This document shows positions 59,208-63,560 of a stretch of 64,000 nucleotides of DNA, piece after piece (position 1 is the stretch's first letter; each line of letters opens with the position of its first letter). The stretch is from Paenibacillus sp. FJAT-26967 (GTDB taxonomy: Bacteria > Bacillota > Bacilli > Paenibacillales > NBRC-103111). The stretch covers positions 1,886,842 to 1,950,841 of the forward strand of contig NZ_LMXH01000001.1 in assembly GCF_001541095.1 (NCBI RefSeq), written 5' to 3'. A program made the position numbers and the translations under genes. A model generated the notes under the pieces. The model was not told the origin of the DNA. It saw only the letters and a list, made by a program, of their open reading frames with translations, and did not search any database.

Positions 59208-60167
59208 ATGAATCTTATGCCAGAAAAGAATCCAGATCGCCTCCGTTTGTTGGTGAAAATCTGCCAGCTTTATTATGAAGACGGGTTGAATCAATTGGAC
59301 ATTGCCAAGCGTCTAGGGATATCCCGGCCGCATGTTAGTCGCATGTTGACTGCAGCCAAGAATGAAGGCATTGTGCGTATTGCGATTCATAATCCGTTTT
59401 CCGCAGAGCAGGAACTTGAGAAATTAATTATTAAGAAATTCGGCATCCAGGATGCACTGGTCGTCGATTCATCCGACATTGCCGCTTCCAGGCTGCATTC
59501 CTTATTAGGTCGTGCGAGCGCTCCATTATTAGAATCCGTGCTGAAAGATGGCGATATCGTAGGGGTTATGGCCGGACGGACAATAGGGCGGGTTGCCGAA
59601 GAACTGGATTATTTCCCGGTGGCCGGGCTTCATTTTGTTCCCTTGGTAGGGGGTTGGGGGTCAGATGGTGAATCGTGTCATGCGAACTCCAACGCTACTG
59701 CGTTCGCCAACAAATTAAAATCAAAATATTCGATTATTCACGCACCCGCAGTGGTTGCCAGCGAAGAAACAGGCCTGCTTTTACGTGAGGAACCTGAGAT
59801 TGCCAAGGTTCTAAAGCTTGCTCAGAACTGCCGTGTGGCGATTGTCAGTATTGGTGAAATGAGTGAACAGGCTACTATGGTGACTTCCGGAAGTTTCAAG
59901 CCTGATGAGGTTAATGATTTGAAAGAACGAGGCGCGGCTGCCAATTTGTGCGCTTCCTTTGTGGATCGGGATGGACAGGAAATTTCATTTCCCGGGGCCA
60001 ACAGAATGATCGGCTTGACAGTCCGGGAACTTCGCGGGATACCGTCAGTTATAGGCATCGCAGGCGGCACCGGGAAAGTCGAGGCGGTGACAGCAGCTTT
60101 ACGCGGCAAATGGGTCGATATTCTGGTAACCGATACGGTTGTGGCGCGGGAGATCGTTTCATCCTGA
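59208..60167 (+). CDS. SorC/DeoR-family sugar-binding transcriptional regulator
   Basis: 319 residues. N-terminal helix-turn-helix LNQLDIAKRLGISRPHVSRMLTAAKNEGIV; the rest is the SorC sugar-phosphate-binding domain (RLHSLLGRASAPLLESVLKDGDIVGVMAGRTI with ends RLHS and GRTI, PLVGGWG, GIAGGTGKVEAVTAAL). AGGAGG lies 4 bases before the ATG. Its stop is 34 bases before trpB, so it is first gene of an operon with trpBA, an unusual association. Confidence 0.9.
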   Translation: MNLMPEKNPDRLRLLVKICQLYYEDGLNQLDIAKRLGISRPHVSRMLTAAKNEGIVRIAIHNPFSAEQELEKLIIKKFGIQDALVVDSSDIAASRLHSLLGRASAPLLESVLKDGDIVGVMAGRTIGRVAEELDYFPVAGLHFVPLVGGWGSDGESCHANSNATAFANKLKSKYSIIHAPAVVASEETGLLLREEPEIAKVLKLAQNCRVAIVSIGEMSEQATMVTSGSFKPDEVNDLKERGAAANLCASFVDRDGQEISFPGANRMIGLTVRELRGIPSVIGIAGGTGKVEAVTAALRGKWVDILVTDTVVAREIVSS

Positions 60168-60201
60168 TAGATCAAAACATTAGAGAAGGAGAGACGTTTA
60201 T

Positions 60202-61494
60202 ATGTCTGACAAGAATGAGGCAGTGCAGTCTATTCCTGCCGCAGCTCATACGCTGGTAACCGAGAATGGCTATTACGGTAATTATGGCGGTATGTTTATA
60301 CCCGAAATATTAGTTCCAGCTTTTGATGAGATCAAGGAGCAGTTCCAAGCGATTCGGCATGATGATTCATTCTGGCAGCAATATTGTGCACTGCTGACCG
60401 GATACTCAGGGCGCCCTACGCCACTCACATTTGCGGATAGACTAACCGAGTATTTTGGCCGTGCACAAATATATATTAAGCGTGAGGATTTGAATCATAC
60501 GGGAGCCCATAAATTAAATAATGCGCTGGGCCAGGCCCTGCTTGCCAAGAAAATGGGCAAAACGAGGGTGATTGCGGAAACTGGAGCGGGGCAGCATGGA
60601 GTGGCTACCGCTACCGCTGCGGCCAAGTTGGGGCTGTCGGCGACAATTTATATGGGACGCGAGGATATGGAGCGGCAATATGCGAACGTCTTTTGGATGA
60701 AAAGACTAGGGGCTGAGGTCGTTGCGGTCGATTACGGTTCTCAGACTCTAAAGGATGCGATTAATGAGACGCTGAGAGACTGGGTTTCCAGCTTTGAAAC
60801 AACTCACTACATTCTGGGAACGGCTTCGGGCGCTCATCCTTTTCCTGCGCTTGTGTCGTACTTTCAGTCCGTGATCGGGATTGAAGCCAGAGAACAGATA
60901 TTGCGTGCAGCTGATCGGCTGCCGGATCGTGTTTATGCTTGTGTGGGCGGGGGATCCAATGCACTAGGCGTCTTCCAGGCCTTCTATACGGATGAAGATG
61001 TGACACTAATTGGTGTCGAGGCCGGCGGACAAGGGAAGGAATCCGGCAGGCACGCTTCACGCATCGCGTATGGAGAAGGAAAGTCCGGCGTAGCTCAAGG
61101 ATATAAAACTCTTTTCCTGCAAAATAACGACGGGCAGATGAACGATACATTCAGCATTGCGGCCGGTTTGGATTACGTGGGTGTATCGCCGATATTGGCT
61201 GATTTGGCCCAGTGCGGCAGGGTTCAGTTCTCAGCTGCGACTGATACTGAGGTGATTGAAGCGCTGAAGATCGTGATGAAAACCGAAGGACTCATTCCTG
61301 CGTTGGAATCAACACATGCATTTGCGGGAGCTTTTCAAGACATTGCCGAATCCTCCAAAACGGATATTTTCATGATTAATATGTCTGGACGCGGCGACAA
61401 AGATATCTTTAATATAGCGGAGGGATTGAATGATGAGGAATGGAAAGCCTTTATCCATCGAAAAAGCAGACAATTTGAAACTCAGTCTCGCTGA
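60202..61494 (+). CDS. trpB: Tryptophan synthase beta chain-like protein
   Basis: 430 residues, PLP-dependent. NGYYGNYGGMFIPEILVPAF is the TrpB start. The PLP lysine is Lys104 in GAHKLNNALGQALLAKKMGK, the catalytic glutamate lies in IAETGAGQHGVATA, and the phosphate loop is CVGGGSNALGVF. It would join indole and serine. Housekeeping residues are kept, but the GLDYVGVSPILADLAQCGRVQF region departs from the usual GLDYPGVGPEHAYL. It stands apart from any trp operon and is preceded by a SorC gene. Confidence 0.9.
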   Translation: MSDKNEAVQSIPAAAHTLVTENGYYGNYGGMFIPEILVPAFDEIKEQFQAIRHDDSFWQQYCALLTGYSGRPTPLTFADRLTEYFGRAQIYIKREDLNHTGAHKLNNALGQALLAKKMGKTRVIAETGAGQHGVATATAAAKLGLSATIYMGREDMERQYANVFWMKRLGAEVVAVDYGSQTLKDAINETLRDWVSSFETTHYILGTASGAHPFPALVSYFQSVIGIEAREQILRAADRLPDRVYACVGGGSNALGVFQAFYTDEDVTLIGVEAGGQGKESGRHASRIAYGEGKSGVAQGYKTLFLQNNDGQMNDTFSIAAGLDYVGVSPILADLAQCGRVQFSAATDTEVIEALKIVMKTEGLIPALESTHAFAGAFQDIAESSKTDIFMINMSGRGDKDIFNIAEGLNDEEWKAFIHRKSRQFETQSR

Positions 61495-62260
61495 CCGGGT
61501 TATTAGAAAACGGTCCGAGAATCCGTTGCAGATGATGACGCACCAGATTCTTGGTTATCCCGACTTCCATACTAATTATGAGATGATTCGTTTGTTTCAT
61601 GAAAATGGCGTTGAACTTGTGGAGCTTCAACTGCCTTTCTCTGAGCCCATCGCCGACGGTCCGGTATTCTTACAAGCTAATCAAGCTTCTCTTGTAAACG
61701 GAACAACGACACGGCAGTGTATGGATTTTGCCAGGCGAGTGGCCTCGGAATTTCCCGATATGATCTTTTTATTTATGACCTACTACAATGTTATCGTTCA
61801 ATACGGAATCGACCGATTTGTCCAAGATTGTGCGGATATCGGGATTGAAGGCCTGATTGTACCGGATGCCTATCCGGAGGAGAGCAGTCCGTTCATGGAG
61901 GCTTGCAGCAAGTACAAGGTAGCCCCGATTCTTATCGCGACACCGTATACAACTGACAGCCGGCTAGTTTATTTATCAGAACAAACGCAAGGCTTTATAT
62001 ACTGTGCTGCACGCAAAGGAGTGACCGGGGCGAAGACTTCATTCGGTACGGAGACGGACGAATTTTTAAACCGCGTTCGTAAGGTCTCCACAAAACCGAT
62101 TGCAGTCGGATTCGGCATCCAGAGCGGAGAGGATTTACAATTCTTGCAGGGAAAATGCGATATCGCTATCATCGGAACACAGCTGCTCAAAGTGTTGGAG
62201 CGAGAGGGGCTGGGCGGAGTCAGCCAGTATTTGAAATCCATGTCTGCTTTCAAGGGATAA
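61430..62260 (+). CDS. trpA: Tryptophan synthase alpha chain-like protein
   Basis: 276 residues, TIM barrel. It would release indole from indole-3-glycerol phosphate. The two catalytic acids are present: Glu65 in VELVELQLPF and Asp76 in IADGP. The residue between, usually Asp in PFSDP, is Glu72. The gene starts 65 bases inside trpB: GGAGGG 5 bases before ATG 61430 makes this long overlap credible. Substitutions elsewhere (QLPFSEP, APILIATPYTTDSRL) mark it as a divergent member. Confidence 0.88.
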   Translation: MMRNGKPLSIEKADNLKLSLADRVIRKRSENPLQMMTHQILGYPDFHTNYEMIRLFHENGVELVELQLPFSEPIADGPVFLQANQASLVNGTTTRQCMDFARRVASEFPDMIFLFMTYYNVIVQYGIDRFVQDCADIGIEGLIVPDAYPEESSPFMEACSKYKVAPILIATPYTTDSRLVYLSEQTQGFIYCAARKGVTGAKTSFGTETDEFLNRVRKVSTKPIAVGFGIQSGEDLQFLQGKCDIAIIGTQLLKVLEREGLGGVSQYLKSMSAFKG

Positions 62261-62289: not shown

Positions 62290-62318
62290 TTGCAAGCCTA
62301 AACCGGTCATGCTAGAAT
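62290..62318 (+). promoter_or_regulatory. Promoter of the macrolide phosphotransferase leader
   Basis: TTGCAA (62290-62295), a spacer of exactly 17, TAGAAT (62313-62318) with an extended TGC before it. Transcription would begin near 62325 and give a leader of about 300 bases before the coding region. Confidence 0.8.
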
Positions 62319-62349
62319 GGCAATACTTGAAGAGAACGGAGGGTTACGT

Positions 62350-62388
62350 GTGATAGATTATTCCCGATTGAGAAAGTCATGCAGCTAA
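62350..62388 (+). CDS. Leader peptide MIDYSRLRKSCS with macrolide-arrest motif
   Basis: A 12-codon frame starting GTG 62350, with GGAGGG (62338-62343) six bases upstream, and stopping at TAA 62386-62388. Codons 6-8 encode Arg-Leu-Arg. This +X+ motif is established as the site where macrolide-bound ribosomes stop, for example in the ErmD leader. It sits 281 bases before a macrolide 2'-phosphotransferase gene, within its own leader RNA. The codons from TCC CGA TTG also form one side of an RNA helix with 62422-62428, so a ribosome stopped here would break that helix. Confidence 0.8.
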   Translation: MIDYSRLRKSCS

Positions 62389-62579
62389 TTGCAGCTTACT
62401 TAAGCTCTGTCTGTGCAGAGTAATCGGGTTTGGTATGTCTATCCACGGATACCCCTAATGATCGATAGGCTTTAAAGTAAAGAGCTTAACCGGATAAGTC
62501 CGGAAGCTTTCGTTTACTTTTATTCGCTTATGATACGATTTATGGGACGGTCCTTTTCCGATTACGAGAACACAGGCAG
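62363..62579 (+). promoter_or_regulatory. Predicted antiterminator/anti-antiterminator switch
   Basis: CCCGATT (62363-62369, inside the leader peptide) pairs with AATCGGG (62422-62428). A small CTCTG/CAGAG hairpin (62405-62420) lies in its loop. Competing with both, CTGTCTGTG (62407-62415) pairs with CACAGGCAG (62571-62579), and GTAATCGG (62420-62427) pairs with CCGATTAC (62558-62565): a nested helix of 17 pairs with one 4x5 internal loop. This second form takes the 5' arm of the terminator and prevents it. Confidence 0.75.
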
Positions 62580-62598
62580 CAGCATGTCTGTGTTTTTT
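62569..62598 (+). terminator. Intrinsic terminator 33 bases before the mph start (attenuator)
   Basis: AACACAGGCA (62569-62578) pairs with TGTCTGTGTT (62585-62594), ten pairs with one wobble, loop GCAGCA, followed by TTTT. Its position between the promoter and the ribosome site of the gene means it must be overcome for expression. Confidence 0.85.
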
Positions 62599-62630
62599 AA
62601 TTTGTTTTTAGAAGAGGAGTGTATGGATCA

Positions 62631-63560
62631 ATGACAAATTTTCCTTTGAACGGCAATCAAACGATGATACAAGCAATGTTAGACTTGGCTAAAGAGCATG
62701 GGCTAACATTAAACCCCGAAAGTGCAGAATTGAACGAATCGGGGATGGATTTCCTCGTCGTATTCGCTGCGGATGCCGCTGGTACCGTTTGGGTGCTGCG
62801 CAAGCCAAGACGTGACGATGTATGGGAACGTGCGGAAAATGAGCACAAGGTCCTGAAGTTAGTCCGGCGTCATTTACCGATTCAGGTGCCGGACTGGCGT
62901 ATTTTCACTCCGGAGCTTATCGCTTATCCGCTTGTAGAAGGGAATCCTGTAGCGACTGTCGATCCGGCGGGCGCTGGTTATTCCTGGTTGTACGAACAAC
63001 ATTCGCTGAACAATATTTTCTTCGATTCGCTTGCGGAAGCTCTATCTGGTCTGCATGGCGTTGATCATAAAAACGCCGCTGAAGCGGGTATTCGTATCAA
63101 GACCCCGCAGGAAGCCCGTCAGGCTTTTGCCGCCAATATAGAAGAGATTAAGAGCGAATTTACAATTCCCGTTAAGCTGTATGAAAGGTGGATGAGATGG
63201 TTATCAACAGACTCTTATTGGCCCCAGCACTCTGTGTTTAACCACGGTGATTTGCATCCTCCCCATATACTTGTGGATGAGACCCATCGTGTAACGGGAT
63301 TTTTGGACTGGACGGAGGCGGAGATCGGCGATCCCGGCAAAGATTTTGTGATTTATTATGCTCTGTTCGGCGAGGAAGGGCTGCTTGACTTGTTAGGGCG
63401 CTACGAGAAAGCGGGAGGGAAAGTATGGCCGCGTATGCACGAGCATATTGCGGAGCAGTGGGCTGCTTATCCGGCGATAGTAGCTAAGTTTGCTCTTGTT
63501 ACGGGAACAGAAAGCAATATGGAGATGGCAAGAGGTATGCTGGCTAACTGGAATGTATAA
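62631..63560 (+). CDS. mph: Macrolide 2'-phosphotransferase (Mph family)
   Basis: 309 residues of APH fold. It would phosphorylate the 2'-hydroxyl of the macrolide desosamine using GTP and so inactivate the drug. MDFLVVFAADAAGTVWVLRKPRRDDV, IAYPLVEGNP, catalytic FNHGDLHPPHILVDE, metal-binding FLDWTEAEIGDPGKDF and GEEGLLDLLGRYEKAGGKVWPRM correspond block by block to MphB as I know it. The start is ATG 62631 (GAGGAG eleven bases upstream); a three-codon frame ATG GAT CAA TGA at 62623 overlaps it as ATGA. Expression is predicted to be induced by macrolide through the leader. Confidence 0.9.
   Translation: MTNFPLNGNQTMIQAMLDLAKEHGLTLNPESAELNESGMDFLVVFAADAAGTVWVLRKPRRDDVWERAENEHKVLKLVRRHLPIQVPDWRIFTPELIAYPLVEGNPVATVDPAGAGYSWLYEQHSLNNIFFDSLAEALSGLHGVDHKNAAEAGIRIKTPQEARQAFAANIEEIKSEFTIPVKLYERWMRWLSTDSYWPQHSVFNHGDLHPPHILVDETHRVTGFLDWTEAEIGDPGKDFVIYYALFGEEGLLDLLGRYEKAGGKVWPRMHEHIAEQWAAYPAIVAKFALVTGTESNMEMARGMLANWNV

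Follow-up and report, generated by a model that had tools for sequence, protein, structure and literature searches.

Three systems, ermK, hflXr and mef/mel, are known to be regulated by transcription attenuation in which a macrolide stalls the ribosome (PMC5418344, PMC6310831, PMC4335068). The ermK gene is controlled by transcription attenuation through a stalled ribosome (PMC5418344). The leaders of ermK and ermD from Bacillus licheniformis encode MTHAMRLRFPTLNQ and MTHSMRLR (PMC4335068), and a ribosome stalled on ErmDL has Leu7 in its P site and Arg8 in its A site (PMC8298421). The hflXr/rli80 leader of Listeria monocytogenes, as mutants and RNA-seq support, combines an anti-antiterminator, an antiterminator and a terminator with an open reading frame (ORF) encoding an R-L-R motif (PMC6310831). 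The streptococcal mef(E)/mel leader (MTASMRLR) is a macrolide-inducible transcription attenuator with a long-range anti-attenuator (PMC4335068), and tlrB of Bacillus subtilis (MIIQFIRYR) likewise shows a short R-x-R leader, drug-dependent stalling and a terminator (PMC6851288). Here we describe a putative attenuator with the same logic as ermK/ermD in a stretch of 64,000 nucleotides (the window) from Paenibacillus sp. FJAT-26967, contig NZ_LMXH01000001.1. It precedes an mph-like macrolide 2'-phosphotransferase gene, whereas a methyltransferase is controlled in ermK/ermD.

From sequence and modelling we put the probability that the element is a ribosome-operated transcription attenuator of the macrolide phosphotransferase-like gene at about 0.9. 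Features of the ermK/hflXr type present in the window are a short leader ORF with Shine-Dalgarno (SD) sequence and arrest motif, computed mutually exclusive helices, and an Mph-like resistance gene. The motif Arg6-Leu7-Arg8 has the same codon numbers as in ErmDL, a likeness of sequence position only. The parts, their order, the competition of helices and its dependence on ribosome position, the co-variation, the R-x-R conservation and the gene family were read or computed from sequence; we infer that the drug stalls the ribosome and induces the gene, and which macrolides do so. By the ermK/hflXr logic, a macrolide kinase gene intrinsic to Paenibacillus may in this way stay silent until the drug is present. 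No printed record of an attenuator of a Paenibacillus mph was found in our searches of the open-licence PMC literature, and the main text on hflXr/rli80 does not mention Paenibacillus (PMC6310831).

Architecture and proposed mechanism

The predicted parts are the following:

62290-62318, + strand: sigma-70-type promoter, TTGCAA-17-TAGAAT, with TG before the -10
62338-62343, + strand: SD sequence of the leader ORF, GGAGGG; near-invariant columns in the alignment of 64 leaders, A1
62350-62388, + strand: leader ORF, GTG start, MIDYSRLRKSCS, 12 residues, stop codon TAA at 62386-62388
62365-62373, + strand: predicted macrolide/ketolide arrest motif Arg6-Leu7-Arg8; R-x-R conserved in homologous leaders, codon positions as in ErmDL
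62342-62456, + strand: anti-antiterminator; arm of about 62342-62369 (SD, start and leader) with 62422-62428 and 62437-62456, from folding and co-variation
62407-62428, + strand: 5' arm of the antiterminator; pairs with 62557-62579 once 62352-62385 is hidden, and co-varies
62459-62545, + strand: spacer with a strong local hairpin from folding; sequence differs between species
62557-62579, + strand: 3' arm of the antiterminator from folding, overlapping the 5' arm of the terminator
62566-62597, + strand: intrinsic terminator, 13-bp stem 62566-62578:62585-62597 followed by a U run
62631-63560, + strand: mph-like macrolide 2'-phosphotransferase gene, the controlled gene, ATG start at 62631, 309 amino acids; assigned by Pfam, NCBIfam and PDB similarity

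Promoter, leader, helices and terminator are thus all present in the order that a preliminary description of this DNA had given, with three mutually exclusive pairings at the places read there. The motif codons are 62365-62367 (Arg6), 62368-62370 (Leu7) and 62371-62373 (Arg8). CCCGATT at 62363-62369 is the exact reverse complement of AATCGGG at 62422-62428, as had been noted. This core helix is part of a longer one in which the SD and start region of the leader also pairs with 62437-62456, an element that the description had omitted. Its second helix, given as 17 bp between 62407-62427 and 62558-62579, exists with a different count: 62407-62415 pairs with 62571-62579 and 62420-62428 with 62557-62565, that is, 9 + 9 bp (18 bp) around an internal loop. 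This antiterminator does take up the 5' arm of the terminator, since 62557-62579 overlaps the stem strand 62566-62578. At gathering score Rfam gave no match in the window, where one sub-threshold match to TCL6_1 (E-value 1.3) was seen, and a single match, a T-box, in 20 relatives of the attenuator.

The promoter agrees weakly with the consensus (9 of 12 positions), and a scan found 5 such sites versus 3.1 ± 1.7 in shuffled sequences. RNA polymerase would start near 62325, and ribosomes would load on GGAGGG and translate the 12-residue leader. Without drug, the ribosome would reach the stop codon and leave, and the leader/SD arm would pair with 62422-62456; because the antiterminator arm is then occupied, the terminator at 62566-62597 would form and mph would not be transcribed. 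A macrolide or ketolide present in the exit tunnel would halt the ribosome when Leu7 occupies the P site and Arg8 the A site, so that it covers approximately 62352-62385. The leader arm would thereby be blocked and 62407-62428 would pair with 62557-62579, using up the 5' arm of the terminator and allowing transcription into mph. A role for macrolides fits the genes found downstream of homologous RNAs, which include those for HflX, Erm, macrolide esterase and Msr.

The 309-residue protein scores 125.5 bits against Pfam APH (cut-off 23.2) and matches eight NCBIfam Mph models, the best being MphC with 279 bits, under the curated cut-off of 550. Since Mph models match, yet the protein stays under the curated cut-off of every Mph subclass model, its sequence identifies it as an Mph-like enzyme outside the named subclasses. 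Its best solved relatives by sequence similarity in the PDB are macrolide 2'-phosphotransferases, and the nearest named relative found is Paenibacillus lutrae, whose Mph is 89% identical.

Competing folds and the position of the ribosome

At -92.5, the minimum free energy of 62325-62600 lies well below that of 200 dinucleotide-shuffled sequences (-68.4 ± 5.0; z -4.9). For the window RNA, the expected numbers of base pairs, listed as anti-antiterminator/antiterminator/terminator, are 22.4/0.0/12.6 in the free RNA. With a ribosome at codon 7 they become 0.0/17.8/0 when the polymerase stands at 62580 and 0.0/13.6/5.6 once the terminator has been transcribed; with a ribosome at the stop codon they are 14.6/0.6/12.2. 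By these counts, stalling and the normal end of translation have opposite outcomes, as an attenuator needs. They also bear out the proposal that a ribosome at Arg-Leu-Arg favours the antiterminated fold: hiding its footprint gives the 18-bp antiterminator, and with the ribosome placed at the stop codon the terminator forms again.

The same calculation was extended to 65 distinct mph leaders of the window type from the order to which the window belongs. Masking the stall footprint lowers the mean terminator folding gain from -10.0 to -5.7 kcal/mol, and in the window alone from -14.6 to -6.6. The mean mask effect is 4.3 kcal/mol, versus -0.06 in 325 controls with shuffled upstream sequence (9/325 above 3); it exceeds 1 kcal/mol in 55 and 3 kcal/mol in 44 of the 65 leaders. 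Folding with and without the leader masked, a check named in the preliminary description, therefore favours the alternative helices in the window and in the set as a whole. A sliding 34-nucleotide mask is effective when placed anywhere between the SD and the leader's end (means +5.4 to +2.9); its effect is reversed over the second arm (about -1.2) and fades further downstream.

Translation attenuation as the main control, in which the stalled ribosome would mainly free the mph ribosome-binding site with the terminator secondary, appears improbable. The SD region of mph at 62612-62620 is indeed mostly paired in the read-through fold, and B. subtilis tlrB combines both layers (PMC6851288), yet the mean unpaired probability is 0.04 in the free and 0.11 in the stalled state, so that this pairing hardly changes on stalling. 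Moreover, the terminator is kept in at least 62 of the 65 leaders, and it is the terminator arm, rather than the mph SD, to which the co-varying helices connect.

Conservation and co-variation among mph leaders

Genes for mph (E-value 1e-70 or better) were found in 79 of 392 genomes of the order. Ninety upstream regions of mph were examined, the window included and some places represented twice; 81 of them (69 distinct) have a leader ORF with SD and R-x-R, and eight of the 69 distinct leaders are of a different, 9-residue type. Among the 65 window-type leaders, 61 encode R-x-R, starting at codon 6 in 56, at codon 7 in three and at codon 5 in two. Between the two Arg residues stands Leu in 54, Trp in three, Phe in three and Val in one, and the second Arg codon is AGA (57), CGA (2), AGG (1) or CGT (1). 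Because R-x-R is kept although this second codon lies outside the 62363-62369 helix, the leader peptide itself seems to be selected. A pattern search located a terminator in 62 of the 65 leaders, 60 of these 62 with a T run of at least four. In 50 of the 65, the best match to a -10 element stops 18-21 nucleotides upstream of where the SD region ends. It is scarcely conceivable, in our view, that the terminator serves only to end an upstream transcription unit of trpBA type, with an incidental leader ORF: a trpB-trpA pair does lie directly upstream, but homologous leaders precede mph in many other genomes, and other genes as well, and in those 50 leaders the spacing between the promoter-like -10 and the leader SD hardly varies.

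Co-variation was assessed by an alignment-free arm-swap test on 29 diverged mph leaders (406 species pairs, L099 left out). Own-species pairing beats swapped pairing in 373/406 pairs for the anti-antiterminator arms and in 377/406 for the antiterminator arms, values reached by 0 of 20,000 permutations in both cases. Two control arm pairs win in 231/406 and 226/406, reached by 3,089 and 3,537 of 20,000 permutations. Both competing helices thus co-vary between species, as the preliminary description had asked of homologous leaders. A compensation of this kind is seen in L035, where the leader reads CCGGTT instead of CCGATT, arm 2 AACCGG and arm 4 CCGGTTA. In addition, we built R1, a covariance model of the 136-position 5' domain, on the 64 sequences of A1. 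When 76 matches were aligned to R1, 93.7% of cells pair and 37 cells are changed on both sides, with 0 of 500 shuffles as high, a result that leans towards the model because the alignment was fitted to it. The arm-swap test on 34 members not associated with mph gave 520/561 and 490/561 for the competing helices, each with 0/20,000 permutations, against a control of 359/561 reached by 1,203/20,000. A third possibility is that stalling acts on mRNA stability: the ribosome would shield the message from decay, with the helices playing little transcriptional role. Leader-dependent mRNA stability is described for mef(E) (PMC4335068), and titles on erm genes in the reference list of PMC11264731 point likewise; since this would leave the co-varying antiterminator and the recurring terminator arm unexplained, we consider it very improbable.

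Several results weigh against a transcription attenuator operated by stalling at codon 7. With the stalled ribosome, 5.6 terminator pairs persist, terminator and antiterminator still competing; the switch therefore leans on co-transcriptional order. The mask effect is at most 1 kcal/mol in 10 of the 65 leaders (L015, L017, L020, L057, L080, L088, L094, L096, L097 and L099), and effects of +1.0 to +1.8 remain when the mask lies, at three offsets, over the outer helix's distal strand. Masks over the SD and start lower the terminator at least as much as the stall mask, so that the decisive point is a ribosome staying anywhere between the SD and codon 8; the stall position proposed as trigger works, but its effect is not unique. 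Four of the 65 leaders (L030, L045, L066 and L078) keep the RNA while the leader ORF ends or shifts before R-x-R; they may be natural losses of the sensor or respond to a different trigger. Without filtering (64 leaders), just 148/20,000 permutations did as well as one of the control arm pairs, and relatedness alone therefore gives some signal. The consensus fold of A1 is weak (-4.5 kcal/mol, double changes in 3 of 10 pairs) and recovers the core hairpin, part of the 62363-62369:62422-62428 helix and one isolated pair; little is recovered because the outer helix drifts in register. Finally, with the mph SD mostly paired in the modelled fold, an added translational layer on mph is possible.

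Other mph upstream regions differ. No window-type leader lies upstream of mph in L025, L038, L093, L101 and L102, L101 having another ORF that ends in R-L-R. The more distant mph genes (L004, L005, L006, L036, L037, L039, L095, L100) have a 9-residue, tlrB-like leader ending R-[IL]-R that the R1 model does not match; the tlrB leader is closer in look to these (L004, L036, L037 and others) than to that of the window. Such class-B leaders and Pontibacter mph were rejected as R1 members, with one match at E-values up to 1 among 17 loci (L101, E-value 0.39). Upstream of mph in Pontibacter (Bacteroidota, L021-L024), short ORFs such as MNFTTSLLQLYL recur by eye, possibly another leader-peptide system. 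A second protein-like frame across the terminator (L013/L017) was rejected, being closed by stops in the window and in L018. In L158 and L160 the attenuator is intact, while the mph behind it is apparently lost except for its first codons, with a lipoprotein-like ORF adjoining.

The R1 family across Bacilli

R1 matches occur in 248 of the 392 order genomes (E-value 0.01), many more than carry mph, and in 63 of 299 genomes of the class (E-value 0.001). At the order level, 80 places without a complete mph were taken from among the R1 matches listed. The downstream ORFs encode HflX in 58, an alpha/beta hydrolase in eight, SDR in five and Erm in three; two have the mph apparently reduced to its first codons (L158, L160), two are unassigned and two lack an ORF of at least 140 amino acids. 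The class-level survey of 31 distinct places (33 loci, two places represented twice) gave nine Erm, seven Mph, four HflX, three esterases, three MFS transporters, two SDR, one Msr ABC-F (L275), one rRNA guanine-methyltransferase-like ORF followed by Msr (L274) and one unassigned (L271), which has a Vga-type ABC-F further downstream. In parallel to hflXr, at least 62 family members precede HflX genes (58 at the order and four at the class level).

The window is an R1 member by construction, being part of A1. Independent support for its membership comes from a second copy in the same genome before hflX (G000:C11:791472-791607, L156:3473-3608, minus strand, E-value 2.5e-15, 78.3 bits), whose leader MIDFIRVWTLRG has the motif R-V-W rather than R-x-R. 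The other HflX gene of this genome (48% identical, G000:C11:456333-457310) has no R1 match; this fits the view that the attenuated copy may be a resistance-type HflX. By sequence, the window element belongs to a family of homologous attenuators that extends across Bacilli and is not mph-specific.

The NCBIfam scan covered 20 downstream proteins. HflX passes (451.1 and 446 vs 216.75), as do 5/5 Erm tested (213.9-247.2 vs 212), the Msr proteins of L274 and L275 (756.5 and 745.9 vs 680) and the macrolide esterases of L208 and L263 (451.2 and 447.3 vs 420), with L193 just failing (409.4). The SDR protein passes the general SDR subfamily model. The specific models are failed by the Mef-like L276 (312.7 vs 675), the Tet-like L261 (187.7 vs 475) and the LmrB-like L265 (519.9 vs 800), which passes the general DHA2 efflux model; the first, methyltransferase-like ORF of L274 is under cut-off (160.7 vs 303).

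Leaders could be placed in 94 of the 98 members outside the mph set (L167, L168, L188 and L254 were lost). A terminator with a CACAGGC-like arm is present in 59 of the 94, across gene families, another hairpin with T run in 33 and none in two. Within the 59, the mask effect exceeds 1 kcal/mol in 28/38 HflX, 4/4 esterase, 6/6 SDR, 6/8 Erm and 1/3 ABC-F/MFS members. R-x-R within the first 13 residues, any plausible start allowed, depends on the downstream gene: 48/59 for HflX, 9/11 for Erm, 3/5 for ABC-F/MFS, 0/12 for esterase and 0/7 for SDR. The SDR leaders read MID[SFY]SR-stop in 7/7, and the two Erm members without R-x-R read MIDCSR (L172) and MIDFSR (L179). Since R-x-R in ErmDL is needed for telithromycin and much less for erythromycin (PMC8298421), and since Paenibacillus MphI inactivates tylosin, spiramycin and telithromycin and gives no resistance to cladinose macrolides (PMC5155152, PMC5760710), it is a reasonable inference by analogy that the sensor peptide is matched to the drug range of the enzyme.

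The class-level member L276 has a leader, MTHSITLRFPTLNQ, very like the erm(K) leader MTHAMRLRFPTLNQ (PMC4335068), and the Erm-associated members L266 and L273 have MYSARLRFPTLNR and MAMFIRLRFPNMNQ. The resemblance of the L276 peptide to that of erm(K) suggests that ermK belongs to the R1 family. A 2024 study of erm upstream regions concludes that the various erm subfamilies probably acquired such features independently of one another (PMC11264731); our sequence data point to common descent for one large set of attenuators that includes erm genes. Streptococcal mef(A) was rejected as a member: the 900 nucleotides before mef(A) of phage phi-SC181 score at most 0.8 bits, and a weak match lies just after the gene (10.5 bits, E-value 0.015).

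What is surprising is the breadth of this RNA family; in our searches of the open-licence literature we found no RNA family common to mph, hflX, erm, esterase, ABC-F and efflux-like genes. With homologous RNA ahead of genes of all these kinds, the switch itself would be the evolving module, and not only the resistance gene. Tentatively, and with a chance that we rate slightly below even, one ancestral attenuator was copied across Bacilli to places ahead of six or more unrelated types of resistance gene (mph, hflX, erm, macrolide esterase, msr ABC-F and efflux), its helices kept by compensating changes and its leader peptide re-tuned to match the drug acted on by each product; the SDR would then be an unrecognised enzyme against macrolides or another exit-tunnel drug. 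Close SDR relatives are rare (4 of 296 order genomes sampled, E-value 1e-90), and an R1 match lies just upstream in 4/4 (76.9, 75.8, 75.1 and 33.0 bits); three of these matches are elements that had led to the gene, while the fourth (L283) is independent of those places. In the two SDR loci read, no neighbouring gene points to its role. If the proposal is true, the RNA model would be a means of finding new resistance genes, and a covariance model flagging drug-sensing leaders would point directly to resistance enzymes that have gone unrecognised, the SDR among them.

Some loci hold more than one element. Two tandem family attenuators precede one erm in L172:2698-3080 and L179:2712-3099, the second match being weak (20.0 and 24.6 bits), with a first leader MIDxSR-stop and a second that begins MIN. 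In L195:302-2879 an element and hflX are followed by a second element (50.2 bits) and an Erm gene (213.9 bits vs 212), that is, one switch per gene. L274:339-2970 contains an R1 element, the rRNA guanine-methyltransferase-like ORF and the Msr ABC-F gene. At L273:1324-1561 a T-box leader (147.8 bits) shares its locus with an attenuator that is associated with Erm.

In the window, 59208-62260 encodes a SorC/DeoR-type regulator followed by the trpB and trpA pair (the listed ORFs overlap), directly upstream of the mph promoter. Just past mph, a minus-strand hairpin with a T-rich tail (63644-63625) is possibly a terminator.
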